From a virus, in IMG/VR virus record IMGVR_UViG_3300036820_000618, positions 1-21,397 of that record: 21,397 bases of DNA. One strand, 5' to 3'. Shown one piece after another: positions 1,641 through 21,397 of this stretch; the first letter of the stretch is position 1; each line of letters starts with the position of its first letter. The translations under genes were made by a program, and so were the position numbers. The notes under the pieces are model-generated. The model had not been told where the DNA came from, did not search any database, and saw nothing but the letters and a program-made list of their open reading frames with translations.

Positions 1641-2285
1641 TCATGCGACCCTCGCCTCCGCTGCGCCCGTCAGCTCGTTCGCGAACGCCCACGCAACAAG
1701 AACGTCCAGGTACCGCAGATCGGTGTACATCGCGATGACGGTCTTGCCGTCAGCACGGCACCGGTATTCGCCGGGGGCGCCCGGATCGCCGAAGCCGTGC
1801 CGGGCCTCGGCCACGACTGCCGCTGCGGCCTTGACGGACACGCACTGGATGCGCGCCAGCGGCGGCAGCTCGGTGACGTGCAGCACTATGCGCGCCATCT
1901 TCAGCTTCGCCTCATACGGGTTCCGGGGCACGTACGGGTAGCCGGTAACCATGAACGGGCCGATCAGGTATTCCGCGGAGTCGTCTTCCAGGACGCTGGC
2001 GTCACGCAGGCCGTCGACATAGACCTTGACGGTCGCGTAAAGGTTGGCCGGGTCGTGCCGGCGCCAGTCGGGCGGCTCATAGACGGCGACGATCCTGGCG
2101 CGGGCCAGCGGCGGCACGCGGCTAGCCTCGGCTGTCTCCTCGCCTTCCTTGCGGAGCTCACGCGTGAGTTCCAGCCTAGCCTTCCAGGTGCCGCGGTCGT
2201 TGGAGTTAAGCCAGCACCTGGGCTTGGGCAGCGTTGAACGGGACGGCATGGCAAGCGTCCACGTCCGCCGACTCGCCGCGATCAT
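1641..2285 (-). CDS. rusA: RusA-like Holliday junction resolvase
   Basis: Cuts four-way DNA junctions symmetrically, resolving recombination or replication intermediates before packaging. The RusA signature is visible: an N-terminal strand, then RRHDPANLYATVKVYVDGL followed by a short segment and VLEDDSAEYLIGP, which supplies the acidic residues that bind Mg2+ and the conserved Lys. At 214 residues it is longer than the roughly 120-residue E. coli RusA, with an insertion between the catalytic block and the C-terminal strands and an added C-terminal tail (YRCRADGKTVIAMYTDLRYL onwards). The ATG at 2285 overlaps the dpdA stop as ATGA; a start at 2249 (MPSRST) is the alternative. It is the last gene of the long coupled operon, with a promoter for the next unit 30-50 bp beyond its stop. 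Confidence 0.8.
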   Translation of the reverse strand: MIAASRRTWTLAMPSRSTLPKPRCWLNSNDRGTWKARLELTRELRKEGEETAEASRVPPLARARIVAVYEPPDWRRHDPANLYATVKVYVDGLRDASVLEDDSAEYLIGPFMVTGYPYVPRNPYEAKLKMARIVLHVTELPPLARIQCVSVKAAAAVVAEARHGFGDPGAPGEYRCRADGKTVIAMYTDLRYLDVLVAWAFANELTGAAEARVA

Positions 2286-3178
2286 CGCATTCCTCCGACC
2301 GCCCGCCACTCGAACATGGCGTCAGACCACTCCCTGAGTTCGGGATCCCACCGCTCGTCTGGATCCGTCAGGTCCCCCTGCCTCCACGCCGCGTCGGGAT
2401 CATCCATCGCCAGCAGTGTCTCGGTGCGCCACTTCAGCGCGTACTTCAGGCAGTTCGCGCAGTTCCCCGTTCCGTTCTTGCCGTGGCGGCACCCTGGCAG
2501 CGGGTCGTCCCGCCGTGCGCAGAAAGACCAGGCCATCGAGTCGCTCGACACAAGCCGGTGGCCGTACATGGCCAGGCCGTCTCTCTTCACGCCGAACCCG
2601 TGCAACTTCAGGGGGGCCAGGGAGATCACGATCTCGCGAGCCTCGGCCATGGCCTGACGGCGGCAGACTGACCCGAGTCCGATTACATCTTCCTTGGTCA
2701 GGTCGATCCCGTACCGCTCGTACAGGTCCGCGCACCGGTGGTAGGCGTCTTTCGTGTCCCCCTGGAGAACCAGTTTGATCGGCAGGTCCGCGCCCAGCAT
2801 CCTGCACTCAACGAGGTTCTCCACCGTCCGGATCTGATGCTCGCGAACAGAGAGGTGGGTTCCGGCGAAATGCTGCCCGGCGAAGGTGCCGCCGTTAATC
2901 ACGAACGGCTCGCACATCCAGTCCTGCGGAGCGGCCCAGACCATGTTCCCGTAATCGCGGTACCGGTAGAGCGCCTTGACGTATTCTGCCGGGCTTTCTC
3001 TCCATTCGCCATGATCGCGAAGCTCGGTAAAGCCACCGGAGTCGATCATGAACGGGCCTCTGGCACACACACCGGACTTCCGCTTCTTCAGCCGGTTGTG
3101 GCTGAGGCAGCACGGCACGTCAGTCTGTTCCGCCCACCCCGGCTGGTGAAAACCAGTGAAATGACAGTGCATCGTCAT
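2282..3178 (-). CDS. dpdA: DpdA-family DNA 7-deazaguanine transglycosylase
   Basis: Predicted to exchange guanine in DNA for a 7-deazaguanine base such as preQ0, by the mechanism of tRNA-guanine transglycosylase. Visible features: FMIDSGGFTEL with Asp46, matching the TGT base-binding DSGGF motif; LVLQGDT near residue 138; GLGSVCRR near 168; SSDSMAW with Asp213, a candidate nucleophile; and a Cys/His cluster (Cys230, His232, Cys240, Cys243) that could be the structural zinc site. At 298 residues it is shorter than tRNA TGT (about 370), as is usual for DNA-acting DpdA. The ATG at 3178 overlaps the queD stop as ATGA and follows GGGGAA. It sits directly after queC, queE and queD, the genes that make its substrate. 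Established knowledge: phage DpdA proteins insert preQ0 or derivatives into phage DNA and block restriction. Subfamily and target site cannot be read here. Confidence 0.88.
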   Translation of the reverse strand: MTMHCHFTGFHQPGWAEQTDVPCCLSHNRLKKRKSGVCARGPFMIDSGGFTELRDHGEWRESPAEYVKALYRYRDYGNMVWAAPQDWMCEPFVINGGTFAGQHFAGTHLSVREHQIRTVENLVECRMLGADLPIKLVLQGDTKDAYHRCADLYERYGIDLTKEDVIGLGSVCRRQAMAEAREIVISLAPLKLHGFGVKRDGLAMYGHRLVSSDSMAWSFCARRDDPLPGCRHGKNGTGNCANCLKYALKWRTETLLAMDDPDAAWRQGDLTDPDERWDPELREWSDAMFEWRAVGGMR

Positions 3179-3531
3179 CGGCTTCCCCGGTAGATGCAGC
3201 CCGACGTGCAAGTTTCCCGCACCTGGATCATGCTCAGCGGCAGCACGGCGGCCAGGCGGTCCCAGATCCAGCGCGCCAGGTTCTCGCTCGTCGGGTTGCC
3301 CAGTCCTGCTACCTCGTTCAGGTAGCGGTGATCAAGTTGGTCATGCAACGGCGCGAACGCGTCCTTGATCTCCTGGAAATCCATTACCCAGCCGGCCTGT
3401 TCATTCACCTGACCCGACACATGAACCTCGACATGGTATGAGTGCCCGTGCAGGCGCCCGCACTTATGCCCGGCAGGAGCGCAGGGCAGCCGGTGCGCCG
3501 CCTCGAACGTGAACTCACGGTAAATTTCCAT
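3175..3531 (-). CDS. queD: QueD, 6-carboxytetrahydropterin synthase
   Basis: Converts 7,8-dihydroneopterin triphosphate to 6-carboxy-5,6,7,8-tetrahydropterin, the second step towards preQ0. The 118-residue protein has all core features: EAAHRL with His13 and LHGHSYHVEV with His28 and His30 as zinc ligands, Cys24 as the catalytic cysteine, DFQEIKDAF, LDHRYLN and the NPTSEN substrate-binding motif. Length is typical for the family. The ATG at 3531 shares its A with the queE stop (TGATG), which fixes the start; a longer open frame upstream is just overlap with queE. It is coupled downstream to dpdA by ATGA. The supply of dihydroneopterin triphosphate must come from a GTP cyclohydrolase outside this window, probably the host's folate enzyme. 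Confidence 0.95.
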   Translation of the reverse strand: MEIYREFTFEAAHRLPCAPAGHKCGRLHGHSYHVEVHVSGQVNEQAGWVMDFQEIKDAFAPLHDQLDHRYLNEVAGLGNPTSENLARWIWDRLAAVLPLSMIQVRETCTSGCIYRGSR

Positions 3532-4175
3532 CACGCTATTCCCAGGTACTTGTGGGTCTGCATACTCAGCCGCCATTGGGGATGGGCTAGGCAGTAGTCG
3601 ATCGCAAGACGCGTATTCGCGTCGCGATCAGGGCCGTCCATCGGCTGGAGCAGCAACTGCGGGAACCCTAGTTCCTCATACATTTCCGGAGTTGCCCCAT
3701 TCTGCGGATAGACTAGCTTCAGTTCGTCACCATGGGTGAGCCTCAAAGGCGCTCCAGCTTTCGGGCTCACGCAGATCCAGTCCAGCGACGGGGGCGGGGG
3801 CGAGATCGTTCCATTTGTCTCCACCGCCACCTCGAAGCCCGACTTCTGCATCATCCGGACGGCGCAGTCATCCAGTTGCAGGAGCGGTTCTCCGCCCGTG
3901 CACACTACGAATGGCCTAGCCTGCTCATGATCCGCTCCTGCCCAGGCCCGGCTGATCGCATCCGCCAGTTGCCGTGCAGTGCCGAACCGGCCGCCGCCCG
4001 GGCCGTCTGTGCCCAGGAAGTCAGTGTCGCAGAACCGGCACGCGGCGCGATGCCGGTCCCTTTCGCGGCCGGTCCAGAGATTGCAACTGGTGAACCGGCA
4101 GAAGACCGCTGGCCGACCCGTGTTCGCGCCCTCGCCCTGCAGCGTGTAGAAGATCTCTTTCACCCGGTAGGTCAT
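3531..4175 (-). CDS. queE: QueE, 7-carboxy-7-deazaguanine synthase (radical SAM)
   Basis: Radical S-adenosylmethionine enzyme that contracts the pterin ring of 6-carboxytetrahydropterin to 7-carboxy-7-deazaguanine (CDG). The 214-residue sequence has LQGEGANTGRPAVFCRF at the N-terminus. The iron-sulfur cluster motif is the expanded Cys31-x14-Cys46-x2-Cys49 form seen in a QueE subgroup, rather than the classical Cx3Cx2C. CTGGEPLLQ (GGEP at 94-97) contacts SAM, and VETNGT follows. Its ATG at 4175 overlaps the stop of the deoxyribosyltransferase-like gene as ATGA, and its own stop overlaps queD by one base. No gaps or missing ligands were seen, so the enzyme should be active. Confidence 0.95.
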   Translation of the reverse strand: MTYRVKEIFYTLQGEGANTGRPAVFCRFTSCNLWTGRERDRHRAACRFCDTDFLGTDGPGGGRFGTARQLADAISRAWAGADHEQARPFVVCTGGEPLLQLDDCAVRMMQKSGFEVAVETNGTISPPPPSLDWICVSPKAGAPLRLTHGDELKLVYPQNGATPEMYEELGFPQLLLQPMDGPDRDANTRLAIDYCLAHPQWRLSMQTHKYLGIA

Positions 4176-4567
4176 GAACTATCACTGCTGCCCATCCGGA
4201 ACAGGATCTTCCGGATCCCCTCCTCCAGGGAAGTGGCTATCTCCGCGTGATAGGCCAGCCAGGGTGACACTGCTCCCGGCTTGACGACCGCGATTACCGG
4301 ACGCCCGGTACTGTGCGCGTGGTAAATTTCCATGGGAGTGCCCCAGGACATCTGCCAGCAGTTGGCCAGCACGAAGTCGCATGCAAGGATATCCGCTTCG
4401 TCGGATTCCACGATCTCGGCAACGAACTCCCCTTCGCGTCCGCGGTAATCCCGGCGCATAGGATCCAGGCAGTTATGCGCTCCGATCCGCACCTTTACCA
4501 CCTCGCGCCACGTAATAGCCTCGTCGTCAGTGCAGCCGCGAATCGGCCCCGCCAAGTAAATCAGCAC
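4172..4567 (-). CDS. Nucleoside 2-deoxyribosyltransferase-like protein inside the preQ0 operon
   Basis: A 131-residue protein with the fold signature of the nucleoside 2-deoxyribosyltransferase superfamily: YLAGPIRG at the N-terminus (residues 4-11), an acidic [12 protein letters not shown] segment (58-69), GTPMEIYHA with Glu80 as the candidate nucleophile, and a Val-rich strand followed by SPWLAYHAE. Family members cleave or swap the base of deoxynucleosides or nucleotides. It lies exactly between queC and queE: its GTG start overlaps queC by 7 bp and its stop overlaps queE by 4 bp, so it should be made with the preQ0 enzymes. A role in processing deazaguanine nucleosides, in cleaning deoxynucleotide pools, or in sugar or base salvage for modification is inference only; it is not one of the standard preQ0 steps. 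Confidence 0.75.
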
Positions 4568-5451
4568 GCCGGGCCCTCCATCAGCAAGCGGATCGCGCAG
4601 AAGGCGTCTGCGTCGCCCGAGGGCACCTTGAGGATCGCCGCACCAAAACGCTCCCGGTCGCGGGACGTATTGCTCCTTGCCGCCACCCGGTGCAACCGGA
4701 GCGCCTCGTTGGTATCGGGATCCAGCGAAGCCGGATCCCGGAGGCCGAGTTCAGCGAACCCCCGGGCACGCAGCAGGCACGAATCGCAAGTCCCGCAAGG
4801 CTGGCCTCCAGCACCTGGGTCGTAGCAACTGTGTGTCAGCGAGTAGTCGACACCCAGATCAAGACCGCGCCTGATAATCTGCGCCTTAGTGAGGCTGATC
4901 AGCGGAGCGTGGATTTTCAGTCGCTGGCGCCCCTCCACGGCCGCCTTCGTAGCCAGGTTCGCCATCCGCTCGAAGGCCTGCATGTATTCCGGGCGGCAGT
5001 CGGGGTACCCGCTGTAATCAAGGGCGTTGACACCGATGAAAACATCACTGCACTCCAGGGTTTCCGCCCACGCCAGGGCGAATGACAGGAAGATGGTATT
5101 CCGGGCGGGAACATACGTTACCGGGATCTCGTCACCGAGTTCCTCGGCACGCGCATGATGCGGCACGTCTATATCCGCCGTCAGCGCTGAGCCGCCGAAC
5201 ATCCTCAGGTCGATGTCAGCTATCGCGTGCTGTGCAATTTGCTGATCGGCCGCTACCTTCTGCGCCGCGTCCAGTTCTACGCCGTGGCGCTGGCCATAGC
5301 GGAAGCTCAGCGCATGGCAGCGATAACCCCCAGCTCCGGCGATCGCCAGCACTGTGGCTGAGTCGAGGCCTCCGCTCAGCAGCACCACTGCAGGCTTGTC
5401 GGTCATCTTGGTTCCCTCGTATTCTCTTGCGCACCTAGTTGATGAACTCAT
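4561..5451 (-). CDS. queC: QueC, 7-cyano-7-deazaguanine (preQ0) synthase, C-terminally extended
   Basis: ATP-dependent enzyme that turns CDG into preQ0 in two steps, using ammonia. The PP-loop SGGLDSAT lies near the N-terminus, FRYGQRH follows, then [17 protein letters not shown], and the C-terminal zinc site is visible in [10 protein letters not shown] plus QPCGTCDSC. Family members usually end shortly after this zinc site, at about 220-240 residues; this one carries about 55 more (after [10 protein letters not shown]), ending EGPAC. The tail is not an obvious fusion domain. Two starts are plausible: ATG 5451, overlapping the preceding stop as ATGA with GGAG six bases upstream, and ATG 5406 ([13 protein letters not shown]), with GAGG eight bases upstream and a typical QueC N-terminus. 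I give the longer form for its coupling, with little preference. Confidence 0.93.
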
Positions 5452-6806: not shown

Positions 6807-7279
6807 TGCGCCTCTTTCCCAGCGCCACTCACACCAAATGCGCCAGCACCCGGTCCGGGCAGGTCCTCGTCAAGCAGGTGCAGGCCGTACCCCCCGAGCA
6901 TTCCGCGGATTTCCGTCAGGGCGTGCTGGCCGAGGCCCTTGTTCTCCGGCCTCAGCAGGTCCGCTGCTGAACGCCCGCTCAGCGCGCGGAGGGTGTAGAT
7001 CCCCGCCTGGAACAGCGCCGTCTTCGTGCGGGTGCACAGGGCCGTGGCATAGGGGGAAAGGTCCAGCACATCCGGTTCCGGCACCAGGCCGTGCGCGGCC
7101 AGCACGAGCACGATCTCCGCTCCGGTGGCGCCCCAGAAGTCGGGAGCGATCTCGATCAGGTCGGCAACCGTGATGGCGCCGGCCTTCGCGACCGCTCTCT
7201 GTGTTGCCCGCACCAGATCCGTCCGCTCCCGGCCGGTCCACAGCGACCCGAACGGCCGGGACAGGATGTCATCGCTCAT
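6803..7279 (-). CDS. Phage protein with two RNA polymerase alpha-CTD-like modules
   Basis: A 158-residue protein. Residues about 72-135 closely resemble the C-terminal domain of bacterial RNA polymerase alpha: DLSPYATALCTRTKTALFQA, then GIYTLRALSG, a LLRPENKGLG turn and QHALTEIRGMLGGYGL, the helix-hairpin-helix that in alpha binds UP-element DNA and activators. Residues about 20-66 form a second, more diverged module of the same plan (ATQRAVAKAGAITVADLIEI, ending VLVLAAHGL), shared with the protein at 5448-5852. No alpha N-terminal dimerisation domain is present, so it cannot assemble into polymerase like alpha. It is coupled to dnaB upstream (ATGA at 7276-7279) and to the methyltransferase downstream. 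It may bind phage DNA or contact host sigma or activators; both are inference. Confidence 0.8.
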   Translation of the reverse strand: MSDDILSRPFGSLWTGRERTDLVRATQRAVAKAGAITVADLIEIAPDFWGATGAEIVLVLAAHGLVPEPDVLDLSPYATALCTRTKTALFQAGIYTLRALSGRSAADLLRPENKGLGQHALTEIRGMLGGYGLHLLDEDLPGPGAGAFGVSGAGKEAQ

Positions 7280-8700
7280 CGCCGTGCCGCCGCTTGTGCG
7301 GGATCCCAGGTGCCGTCCTCGCCCGAGCCCCGCGCTGGCGGGCGGCTCATATGCGCCGGGGCCATATCCACGAAGCGGCTGTAGTGGCCCTGGAACGCTA
7401 CGGTCACCGTCGCCGTCGGCCCGTTCCTGTGCTTGGCCACGATCAGGTCCGCCTCGCCAGCCCGAGGCGACTCCTTCTCATAGGCGTCTTCCCGGTGCAG
7501 GAGAATTACGAGATCGCTATCCTGTTCGATGCTGCCACTCTCGCGCAAATCGGACATCAGTGGCTTCTTGTCGGTGCGCTGCTCGGGCCCGCGGTTGAGC
7601 TGGGAGATGGCGATCAGCGGCACCTCAAGTTCCTTGGCCAGGACCTTGAGCGACCGCGACATCTCGGACACTTCCTGCTGCCGGTTCTCTGCGCGCTTCG
7701 GCGACGACATCAGCTGGAGGTAGTCGACAATGACGAGCTTCAATCCGTGCTGAGCCTTCAGGCGGCGGCACTTTGACATGATGCCCGGCACGGTGATAGC
7801 GGGGGTCTCGTCAATGAACAGCGGCGCATCGGAGACCTCGGGCGACTTGTCCGCCAGGCGCGACCAGTCCTGGTCGGTCATCTGGCCGGTGCGCATTGAG
7901 TGGAGCAGGATATGGGCGTGCGCCGAGAGAATGCGCATCATCAGCTCATCCCGGCTCATCTCCAGGCTGAAAATGGCAGTCGGCAGGCCGTGCTTAATGG
8001 CTGCCGCCCGCGCCACATCTACTGCCAGGGTCGATTTTCCCAAAGCGGGCCGGCCGGCTATGACGATCATCTGGCCTGGGTGCAGGCCGTTAGTGAGCGC
8101 GTCCAGATCGGAGAAGCCGGTGGGAACGCCCTTGATCCCGCCTCCCCGGGCGACCATCTCCATCCAGTCCACGGTGCCGGGCAGGATCTCGGCCGCCGAC
8201 TGGTAGGCGCTGGTGTCCTGGCCCTGGGCGACGGCCATCACCTCGGCCATGGACCGGTCAACGCGCGCATCGGCATCGGTGCCGGCCGCGTAGCCGAACT
8301 GCACGATGCGCGTGCCCGCCTCGACCAGGCGGCGGGAGACAGCGTGCTCACGGACGATGCGCGCGTAGTAGCCGGCGTTGGCGGCGGTGGGGACGGAGGC
8401 GATCAGCGTGTGCAGGTACGGCCCGCCGCCCACCCGGCTGAGTTCGCCGCGCCTGGTCAGCTCGTTCGCTACCGAGATCGCGTCTACGGGCTCGCCGCGG
8501 CCGTACAGGTCGAGGACGGCCTCGTGGATCAGCTGGTGCGCGGGCCGGTAGTGATCGGTAGGCCGGATCACCTCGATCACATCTGAGATGGCGTCCTCCG
8601 ACAGCAGCATGCCGCCGAGCGCGCACTGCTCCGCGGCCACGTCATGCGGCGGCGTGCGGTCAAAGGCGTCCTCGGCCGGGCAGTCCAGGGTGACCGTCAT
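7276..8700 (-). CDS. dnaB: DnaB-type replicative DNA helicase
   Basis: Hexameric 5'-3' helicase that unwinds the replication fork. The 474-residue product has the standard DnaB layout: N-terminal domain (HDVAAEQCALGGMLLSEDAI, residues 19-38), linker, then the RecA-like ATPase domain with Walker A GRPALGKST (216-224), FSLEMSRDEL (244-253), Walker B VIVDYLQLM (323-331) and ISQLNRGPEQR (365-375). No intein is present. The C-terminal tail after FVDMAPAHMSRP is low complexity. A strong GGAGGAGGG precedes the ATG, which also overlaps the stop of a 29-codon mini-gene. It lies downstream of the initiator and loader genes, so the phage carries its own helicase loading system. Confidence 0.97.
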   Translation of the reverse strand: MTVTLDCPAEDAFDRTPPHDVAAEQCALGGMLLSEDAISDVIEVIRPTDHYRPAHQLIHEAVLDLYGRGEPVDAISVANELTRRGELSRVGGGPYLHTLIASVPTAANAGYYARIVREHAVSRRLVEAGTRIVQFGYAAGTDADARVDRSMAEVMAVAQGQDTSAYQSAAEILPGTVDWMEMVARGGGIKGVPTGFSDLDALTNGLHPGQMIVIAGRPALGKSTLAVDVARAAAIKHGLPTAIFSLEMSRDELMMRILSAHAHILLHSMRTGQMTDQDWSRLADKSPEVSDAPLFIDETPAITVPGIMSKCRRLKAQHGLKLVIVDYLQLMSSPKRAENRQQEVSEMSRSLKVLAKELEVPLIAISQLNRGPEQRTDKKPLMSDLRESGSIEQDSDLVILLHREDAYEKESPRAGEADLIVAKHRNGPTATVTVAFQGHYSRFVDMAPAHMSRPPARGSGEDGTWDPAQAAARR

Positions 8701-11384: not shown

Positions 11385-11723
11385 ATGACTGCGGTGACCG
11401 AAAATCGGCAGGGTCCGATCGCCGAGATCCTGGCAGCCCGTGAGCGCCTGGAGCAGGCGCGGACGCAGGGAACGGAACTCCGGCGCATCTATGTGGACCG
11501 ATCGAAGGCGCAACTCGGCCAGAAGATCGTCGTCGCCCGGGTGGGCGGCACGAAGCAGACGCAGATCCAGGAAGAACTCGGCCTGAAGAGCCGCGACGAT
11601 GTCCGCATCCTTGAGGTTGCGTACCGTAAGTGGATCGCAGAGCATCCTGACGACGACTTGCGCAGGGATGCAGACTGGCCGGCGATCCTGCAGCAGGCTG
11701 GCTTTCTGCAGATGGCCAGCTGA
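11385..11723 (+). CDS. Plus-strand helix-turn-helix-like protein, possible regulator
   Basis: A 112-residue protein, one of only two genes on the plus strand. It begins with a long helix (IAEILAARERLEQARTQGTE), continues with ELRRIYVDRSKAQL, and has a helix-turn-helix-like segment (TKQTQIQEELGLKS, then RDDVRILEVAYRKWI) at about residues 58-85, followed by an acidic stretch and ADWPAILQQAGFL. Third codon positions are strongly G/C, as in the minus-strand genes, while the opposite frames look like shadows, which supports this strand. GAGGAAGG lies about 12 bases before the ATG, so the ribosome site is not ideal. It is divergent from the replication operon and ends 8 nt before the stop of the convergent minus gene. 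A repressor or activator of the operon is a reasonable inference, no more. Confidence 0.7.
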   Translation: MTAVTENRQGPIAEILAARERLEQARTQGTELRRIYVDRSKAQLGQKIVVARVGGTKQTQIQEELGLKSRDDVRILEVAYRKWIAEHPDDDLRRDADWPAILQQAGFLQMAS

Positions 11724-20206: not shown

Positions 20207-20232
20207 AGACTCAGCCGATGAGGGCTGAGTCT
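20195..20232 (-). terminator. Intrinsic terminator overlapping the end of the 20211-20576 gene
   Basis: On the minus strand AGACTCAGCC, a 6-nt loop (CTCATC) and GGCTGAGTCT form a perfect 10-bp stem (20232-20207), followed by TTCTTCTTTTCC (20206-20195). The gene's last codons and its TGA stop (20213-20211) are in the stem. This is a classical rho-independent layout with a T-rich, not pure T, tail. The stem has moderate GC, making it a fairly strong candidate. Confidence 0.8.
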
Positions 20233-20576
20233 GATCCGAGCAGCTGGGCGGCCCGGGTGGCGCAGAAGGCGTAGAACTCGCGGAACTCAGCCGCGCCGCC
20301 CGTCAGGTAGCCGGGAACGTCGAACCCGTTGTCCTGGTCCTGGGCCACCATCTCGGCGGCATTCCAGGTGAATACGTCCCCGGCGATGCCGAGGGCCAGC
20401 GCGACGGCGCCGAGAGCATCGCCGTCGCTTGCGAGTTCCTCCCGGGGCACACCCCCGCCGTAGAGCAGGGCCGCGATCTCCGGGTATGTGAGGCGGTGAC
20501 GGACGTAGAAGACGAGGCCGTCCTCGTCGCGCTCTACGCGGAAGGCGGGACTGTCGCTGACGCTGCTGGATGGCAT
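20211..20576 (-). CDS. Phage hypothetical protein upstream of the recombination block
   Basis: A 121-residue acidic protein of unknown function: MPSSSVSDSPAFRVERDEDG, LVFYVRHRLTYPEIAALLYG, then GAVALALGIAGDVFTWNAAE and a helical C-terminus (AAEFREFYAFCATRAAQLLG). No known motif. AGAGGT lies about six bases before the ATG. It is divergent from the plus-strand gene at 20717 and is transcribed alone, as a terminator closes it. Its promoter would be in the TTGACR repeat region, so it may be the gene directly controlled by the divergent protein. Confidence 0.75.
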   Translation of the reverse strand: MPSSSVSDSPAFRVERDEDGLVFYVRHRLTYPEIAALLYGGGVPREELASDGDALGAVALALGIAGDVFTWNAAEMVAQDQDNGFDVPGYLTGGAAEFREFYAFCATRAAQLLGSDSALIG

Positions 20577-20716
20577 GAAGCACCTCTCGGAGGATATTGA
20601 CGATATGCGTCAAGTGCCTTACACCGATGACCGTACGCCTCCTGAGCGCGGGGCGTCAAGCAGTAACCTGTATTGTGTCAAGGAACTTACGAACCGGACA
20701 ACCGAGAGGGAGCAAG
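20577..20716. promoter_or_regulatory. Divergent control region with repeated TTGACR boxes
   Basis: CTTGAC(A/G) occurs three times on the minus strand: 20682-20676 (TTGACA), 20660-20654 (TTGACG) and 20614-20608 (TTGACG). The last is half of a perfect inverted repeat TTGACG-ATATG-CGTCAA (20597-20613). The middle copy is followed after 18 bp by TACGGT (20635-20630), a fair -10, which makes a plausible promoter for the 20211-20576 gene. The boxes may be -35 elements of tandem promoters, operators, or both. On the plus strand only TATTGT (20671-20676) is a possible -10 for the gene at 20717. Confidence 0.6.
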
Positions 20717-21397
20717 GTGACCTCAGAGACGCCAGCTAGCGCAGACGCAGCGGACGAGGAGTTGCGGGCAATTAATGACCCCGAAGAGCGTGCCCGGCGG
20801 GCCGCAGACGTGATCGAGCACTGCAAGACCATAATCGAGGTAGCCACGATCGTGCGGGATGAAGCGATTCCCCTCCTGCACGCCGGCGGCATGAAGCAGG
20901 CTCCGATCGGCCGGGTGGTCAGGATCTCGCGGGAGCGAGTGAACCAGATCCTGAGGGCAGGGAGCCCGGTGCCCGGCCGTCTTTTCTGGGGGGCACCCGA
21001 GGGTCACCTGACGATCGCCCTCGGCGAGAAGAAAGAGGAGCCGAAAGATGCCAGCGGCGGCCCGGGGCCGGTCGTGGCGACAGAGGACATGCAGGCATTC
21101 GAGATGCTGCGCGAGATGCTGACGGGTGCGGACATCAGTGCTGACTACGAGATGATCGCGCCCCCTGGCATCGTGCGGCTGAACCGTGCTGGCCTGCTGG
21201 TAATCTGCGGTCCGCGGCTGAGCTCAGTCATTGCCCAGTCGGCAGAAGCCGACCCATTCCTCGGGTTCGGCAAGGACGAGGCGGGGTGGTTCCTGGCTAA
21301 CCGCGATACGGGCGAGCGCTGGCATTCTCCGCTGGACGCAGGCGAGATGAGCGATATCGGGTACATCGCCCGGCTGCCGCGGCCTGACCAGAACGGG
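20717..21397 (+). CDS. Actinobacterial helix-turn-helix-type protein, C-terminus beyond window
   Basis: The plus-strand frame is open from GTG 20717 to the right edge (227 codons, no stop). GAGAGGGAG lies four bases before the GTG. The first 55 residues are helical and acidic (DPEERARRAADVIEHCKTII, EVATIVRDEAIPLLHAGGMK). A helix-turn-helix follows (APIGRVVRISRERVNQILRA, about 61-80), then a linker and a C-terminal domain with APPGIVRLNRAGLLVICGPR, LSSVIAQSAEADPFLGFGKD and GWFLANRDTGERWHSPLDAG. The same layout, with an ICGPRLS motif, is familiar from chromosomal actinomycete proteins of unknown function. It faces the minus genes across an operator-like region, so a phage or host regulator is likely by inference. 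Confidence 0.75.
   Translation, partial: MTSETPASADAADEELRAINDPEERARRAADVIEHCKTIIEVATIVRDEAIPLLHAGGMKQAPIGRVVRISRERVNQILRAGSPVPGRLFWGAPEGHLTIALGEKKEEPKDASGGPGPVVATEDMQAFEMLREMLTGADISADYEMIAPPGIVRLNRAGLLVICGPRLSSVIAQSAEADPFLGFGKDEAGWFLANRDTGERWHSPLDAGEMSDIGYIARLPRPDQNG

Follow-up and report, generated by a model that had tools for sequence, protein, structure and literature searches.

The closest described system is KorA (TrfB) of IncP-1 plasmids, with a palindromic operator GTTTAGCTAAAC and half-site GTTTAG (available part of PMC2680271). KorA is a helix-turn-helix (HTH) repressor of plasmid core genes acting at a palindrome, and the regulator described here is predicted to act in a similar way. 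The KorA operator overlaps the -10 of its own gene's promoter. Some relatives of the present regulator match Pfam KORA weakly. The two differ in the operator (16 bp with a 4-bp centre in the present family, 12 bp in KorA), in a large extra C-terminal domain and in the placing of strong sites, which in 15 loci are nearly confined to the gap of the regulator itself; it therefore looks local, not global. Assignment to KorA/TrfB by Pfam KORA was rejected (no match to E 0.1 for the regulator itself; best relative 21.6 bits, cut-off 26.7). The best reading is a regulator KorA-like in behaviour, but of an uncharacterised family. SpdA2 with its 12-bp sps palindrome is a separate system (available part of PMC4170104).

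Homology to known phage immunity repressors of the CI/Cro kind was not found in the phage collection searched. Homology along the visible length was found with plasmid proteins annotated as sigma-70 family or sigma factor-like HTH proteins (WP_326615322.1; WP_012476905.1 of pRL1), whose loci have the divergent gap, the promoter and, in the spacing of candidate sites, the operator geometry seen here. The present gene is about 38-42% identical to them, with candidate operators weaker than theirs; the gene to its left is an orphan beside phage-type genes. A phage-like plasmid record of Streptomyces nigrescens, phiDSM40276 (NZ_CP114204.1), carries a RecE relative (44%) in a leftward operon, preceded by a short divergent gap (L059:12543-12708) with TTGACG-N17-TACGGT inside. 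It differs in being absent from the 24 plasmid records with a regulator relative and in its divergent plus-strand gene, which encodes another protein of 161 aa. This gap adjoins a recombinase gene.

The locus is read here, with a probability of about 0.68, as an autoregulated divergent switch, in which a dimer on GTYNAG half-sites would silence leftward transcription and limit how much regulator is made. Gene family, divergent layout, family operator, leftward promoter and three-box spacing were established by computation. The window is the whole analysed stretch of 21,397 bp, an IMG/VR virus record and the only sequence of this genome used.

The regulator gene and its relatives

The gap of 140 bp is flanked by two divergent genes, placed as in the first-pass annotation (minus-strand ATG at 20576, plus-strand GTG at 20717).

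20717..21397, plus strand: HTH regulator gene; GTG start, GAGGGAG upstream, cut by the contig end; GC3 0.79.
20211..20576, minus strand: orphan gene; ORF of 121 aa; GC3 0.85.
20207..20232, minus strand: intrinsic terminator after the orphan gene; 10-bp stem followed by TTCTTCTTTT.

GC3 is high in both genes. The visible part of the regulator is 227 aa; relatives have 276-307 aa in most loci, so about one fifth of the protein is missing. It consists of an N-terminal sigma-region-4-like HTH and an uncharacterised C-terminal domain. The match to Pfam Sigma70_r4 is weak (E 0.039), and a search of PHROGs yields no more than a weak HTH hit (E 0.01). One relative (L009) matches Sigma70_r4 at E 3e-8 and KORA at E 2.6e-4. 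Sigma region 2 was not matched by Pfam in the window regulator or in the three relatives scanned, which gave region-4 matches only; a sigma-70 factor with regions 2 and 4 was thus rejected. In the AF2 model (pLDDT 82.0) the HTH helices are H61-68 and H72-81. The model of the relative L010 has pLDDT 89.6, and its C-terminal domain (approximately residues 74-268, L010:6202-6786) is similar to the alpha/beta domain at the N terminus of GH67 glucuronidase (126 residues, Z 11.3, 2.4 A); part of BcsB also aligns (Z ~10-11). The structure search bore mainly on the C-terminal part, and no functional reading was drawn from the likeness to GH67 or BcsB. A KorA structure was absent among the structural matches listed for L010. 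Foldseek against PDB and BFVD gave nothing at E <= 0.001 for the structure of the regulator relative.

Relatives occur in 24 plasmid records, with near-full query coverage and 38-42% identity among the matches listed. The best has E 4e-43 across all 227 aa of the query, and the window protein was aligned with 21 relatives. The homology thus extends over the whole visible protein to an actinobacterial plasmid family of sigma-like HTH regulators, as grouped here. Among genome contigs, a relative is encoded in 34 of 69 pattern candidates; matches were found in 9 of 396 sampled genomes of the phylum. IMG/VR scans with the window protein alone or with a six-sequence alignment gave no relative; the scan with a 22-sequence alignment gave six contigs. 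In the phage collection (50,697 records) no match was detected, either with the window regulator or with a plasmid relative as the query. Neither the regulator nor the orphan gene matches in PADLOC. No recognised description of the family was found in a literature search, most subscription journals being outside its coverage.

Twenty of the 24 plasmid loci were opened (three of S. anulatus and one of Nocardia farcinica left out). In all 20 the regulator and the annotated gene that precedes it are on opposite strands, and the HTH resembles those of sigma region 4 and KorA; both support the divergent switch with an HTH gene that had been proposed. Neighbouring genes include transfer, WhiB, RRQRL, ParA, FtsK-like, relaxase and TraB genes. 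Downstream of the regulator, the first gene is frequently PP2C-like, 'integrase' or hypothetical.

Boxes, candidate operators and promoters in the gap

Four TTGACR hexamers are present in the gap, within 20597-20681, three on the minus strand (20613-20608, 20659-20654, 20681-20676) and one on the plus strand (20597-20602). The window as a whole has 22 matches against 12.5 expected, so isolated boxes are common and the cluster is not. At least four per 140 bp were reached in 0 of 20,000 Markov shuffles of intergenic composition, as well as of local 2-kb composition. The box cluster of the first-pass annotation, inverted copy included, is thereby borne out. Three GTCAAG on one strand of a 140-bp gap were likewise found in 0 of 20,000 shuffles with both compositions, and the three same-strand boxes are better read as plus-strand GTCAAG half-sites.

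20597..20602, plus strand: inverted TTGACG copy, giving TTGACG-N5-CGTCAA with 20608-20613.
20609..20624, plus strand: candidate operator O1, GTCAAGTGCCTTACAC, at -108 from the plus-strand start; motif score 9.58.
20655..20660, plus strand: candidate operator half-site O2, GTCAAG, at -62; overlaps the leftward -35.
20677..20682, plus strand: candidate operator half-site O3, GTCAAG, at -40; just after the candidate plus-strand -10.
20630..20659, minus strand: predicted leftward promoter TTGACG-N18-TACGGT; its -35 is the box at 20654-20659.
20671..20676, plus strand: candidate rightward -10 TATTGT preceded by TG (TGTATTGT); picked by eye, no good -35.

The family motif was obtained by de novo expectation-maximisation from 220 bp upstream of 46 relatives and of the window gene, reduced to 34 regions by removal of near-duplicates. 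L005, a duplicate of L004, was left out, as were seven of the 34 genome loci, which matched only in part or lay too close to a contig end. One locus (L051) was anchored at 2501, upstream of the annotated start 2570; in unannotated loci start codons were picked by eye out of candidate lists. The motif is a 16-bp palindrome, GTt.Ag.gc.cT.aAC, symmetric even without the palindrome constraint. Trained on the 33 regions other than the window, it gave a log likelihood gain of 345.7, against 34.3-47.2 in five shuffled sets. Strong operator sites are rare away from the regulator's gap. A scan over the full length of 15 loci (~242 kb, near-duplicates L004 and L005 among them) gave 30 hits scoring at least 12, and 29 of them are just upstream of the regulator; the scan is partly circular because the motif was trained on the same upstream regions. 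Streptomyces plasmid loci typically have three such sites, at distances from the start codon of about -117, -62 and -40; in most loci the proximal one is at -38 to -41. Many of the Streptomyces loci are closely related, so locus counts overstate independence. Two loci (L008 and L034) have no upstream site above score 6. Of the six IMG/VR relatives, found after motif training and not in the training set, only L077 has an upstream site scoring at least 9.

O1 has the top score of the entire window under the motif trained without the window. This score is reached by 2.4% of shuffled 140-bp gaps of intergenic composition and by 0.7% of those of local composition; a 21-kb stretch would contain about 1.25 of them by chance. 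O2 is a perfect GTYNAG half-site with a mismatched right half, at the distance of the middle operator of Streptomyces plasmids. O3 is also a perfect half-site, with a full 16-bp score of -1.2, at the distance of the proximal operator. As 16-bp GTYNAG-N4-CTNRAC sites, O1 fits modestly and O2 and O3 have degenerate right halves. Boxes at -108/-62/-40 compare with plasmid operators at about -117/-62/-40: two distances are equal and the third is approximately one helical turn shorter. In a MAFFT alignment it is O1 that falls on the middle operator of the plasmids, and not O2, so the one-to-one pairing by distance is only a reading, of uncertain register; it is supported mainly by the leftward promoter. 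The TTGACG-N5-CGTCAA type of palindrome occurs in 1 of 47 upstream regions, that of the window itself, and is thus probably locus-specific or a chance feature.

The form TTGACN-N17/18-TANNGT has a single match in the window, at the leftward promoter (0.07 expected). Within 250 bp upstream of the regulator the form is present in 25 of 53 loci, the window included and many of them close Streptomyces relatives (shuffles: mean 0.04, maximum 1, n = 50). Matches are mostly 56-62 bases from the regulator start codon. A divergent gap with a leftward TTGAC-N17/18-TANNGT promoter, as in the family, is thus present in the window. No promoter was called in the gap by a sigma-70 scan, the leftward promoter being missed because its -10, TACGGT, matches TATAAT at 3 of 6 positions. 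The form may be generic to actinobacteria and not specific to the family, since the phiDSM40276 gap has it without the regulator. The rightward promoter appears weak and would lie directly before O3.

If the boxes served solely as actinobacterial promoter -35 elements and lacked an operator role, this would account for the frequency of single TTGACR (22 in the window) and for a position weight matrix hit that alone is not rare. This reading is very improbable: only one of three tested GTCAA boxes is accompanied by TANNNT at 16-19 bp, the motif of the family forms a palindrome, and no shuffle contained three GTCAAG within 140 bp. The first-pass annotation had taken the boxes as both -35 elements and operator sites. 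The double role is well supported at 20654-20659; the other two same-strand boxes can fairly be read as operator half-sites.

Leftward genes and type of element

The orphan gene is the presumed target of the leftward promoter. Relatives of it were not found in phages (E <= 1), in IMG/VR (by peptide patterns) or in 396 genomes. The terminator after it folds with -19.4 kcal/mol (z -5.0), which none of 200 shuffles equalled. Beyond it, in the leftward direction, are genes for RecE, RecT, HNH, DnaE, an O-like initiator, a DnaC-like loader and DnaB, and DNA-modification genes. Control of the RecE, RecT and DnaE genes by the switch is doubtful because of this strong terminator; the leftward transcript may end there, with the genes beyond using other promoters.

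A minus-strand cluster at 2282-5451 encodes DpdA (Pfam E 1e-65), a QueD/PTPS-like protein, a radical-SAM protein, which by position we take to be QueE-like, and QueC (E 1.3e-75). It is likely a 7-deazaguanine DNA modification set. A lone plus-strand ORF (11385-11723, 112 aa; no PHROGs match) is located amid the leftward gene block and is perhaps the first divergent switch of the first-pass annotation.

The lysogeny-type switch proposed earlier would make the plus-strand gene an immunity repressor and the leftward promoter an early lytic one driving recombination and replication genes. The divergent layout agrees with it, as do the leftward RecE, RecT, DnaE, O-like initiator, DnaC-like loader and DnaB genes and the matches to virion-gene families in three of the six regulator-bearing IMG/VR contigs. 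Nevertheless it is unlikely. The regulator has no relative in the 50,697 phage records, and in plasmids its gene faces other operons. Streptomyces phage VieEnRose, which has a related DnaE, has elsewhere its own annotated divergent pair of a DNA-binding protein and an immunity repressor. The terminator separates the orphan gene from RecE and therefore argues against naming the gap the lytic switch. The element boundary offered as the other possibility has no support and was rejected: no integrase was found by Pfam among 18 window ORFs, and the contig stops too early, 680 bp into the regulator gene.

The RecE, RecT, DnaE and O-like genes are phage-type. The best matches of DnaB (7276-8700, minus strand) in the plasmid collection are many actinobacterial plasmid helicases, with 60-64% identity over most of the length; it is 67% identical to the counterpart on a Nonomuraea chromosome that is catalogued as a plasmid. 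The best two phage matches among those listed of 2,049 records have 61% and 57%. DnaB is as close or closer to actinobacterial plasmid replicative helicases than to the best phage records. Several plasmid and genome loci have a DnaB relative close to the regulator. The identity of DnaE to VieEnRose and to a Nonomuraea chromosome is 49-58%. Close phage synteny was rejected: among the window proteins listed, a set without the regulator, no second one matched these DnaE stretches at E <= 1e-4. IMG/VR relatives of DnaE and DnaB share no second window gene.

Plasmid relatives of the regulator lie among transfer, WhiB, ParA and relaxase genes, and none is in the phage collection. A plus-strand gene far from phages with unrelated flanks, the situation said by the first-pass annotation to count against its proposal, is in part what was found. 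Against it stand the six IMG/VR contigs that carry the family, three of which have a match to a virion family (capsid, portal or tape-measure). Phage_capsid is matched in two, tape-measure and portal in one, a ParA-type protein in one; TerL_ATPase is matched in none of the six. FtsK-like matches occur in three, one of them above the cut-off. Two of the contigs are possible phage-plasmids: L081 (G404, 102.9 kb), with regulator, portal and tape-measure matches, and L082 (G405, 75.8 kb), with regulator, capsid and ParA-type matches. For the window element, a phage-plasmid is a fair guess.

The proposed circuit and its significance

We infer binding of the regulator to these boxes, repression and not activation, and a phage or phage-plasmid with a plasmid-type control circuit. 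The regulator would bind as a dimer to half-sites of the form GTYNAG; across the family these pair into a palindrome of 16 bp. Between the two genes it would use three sites. O2 would occupy the leftward -35, O1 would cover the start site of the leftward promoter and O3 the point at which transcription of the regulator gene presumably begins. With the sites bound, leftward transcription would be shut off and regulator synthesis lowered, that is, repression combined with autoregulation.

An activator would instead contact the TTGAC box by its sigma-region-4-like HTH and recruit RNA polymerase to the leftward promoter, which suits the Sigma70_r4 similarity and the coincidence of the O2 box with the -35. 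Activation is distinctly unlikely, since the leftward -35 is already consensus-like and the window regulator and three relatives have no sigma region 2 match. Repression fits better because O1 covers the leftward start and O3 the regulator's presumed start.

The autoregulated switch would be a circuit best known from actinobacterial plasmids, here located beside phage-type replication genes. If true, it would provide a predicted function and a binding site for a family annotated only as sigma-like or hypothetical on many actinobacterial plasmids, and would connect a replication segment of phage type with a control circuit of plasmid type. More tentatively, it is possible, if rather doubtful, that such proteins are widespread undescribed regulators of actinobacterial mobile elements, in which a sigma-region-4-like HTH reads GTYNAG palindromes that double as -35 elements. 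The circuit would then be common to conjugative plasmids and phage-plasmids, and so may coordinate plasmid-like and phage-like life cycles.
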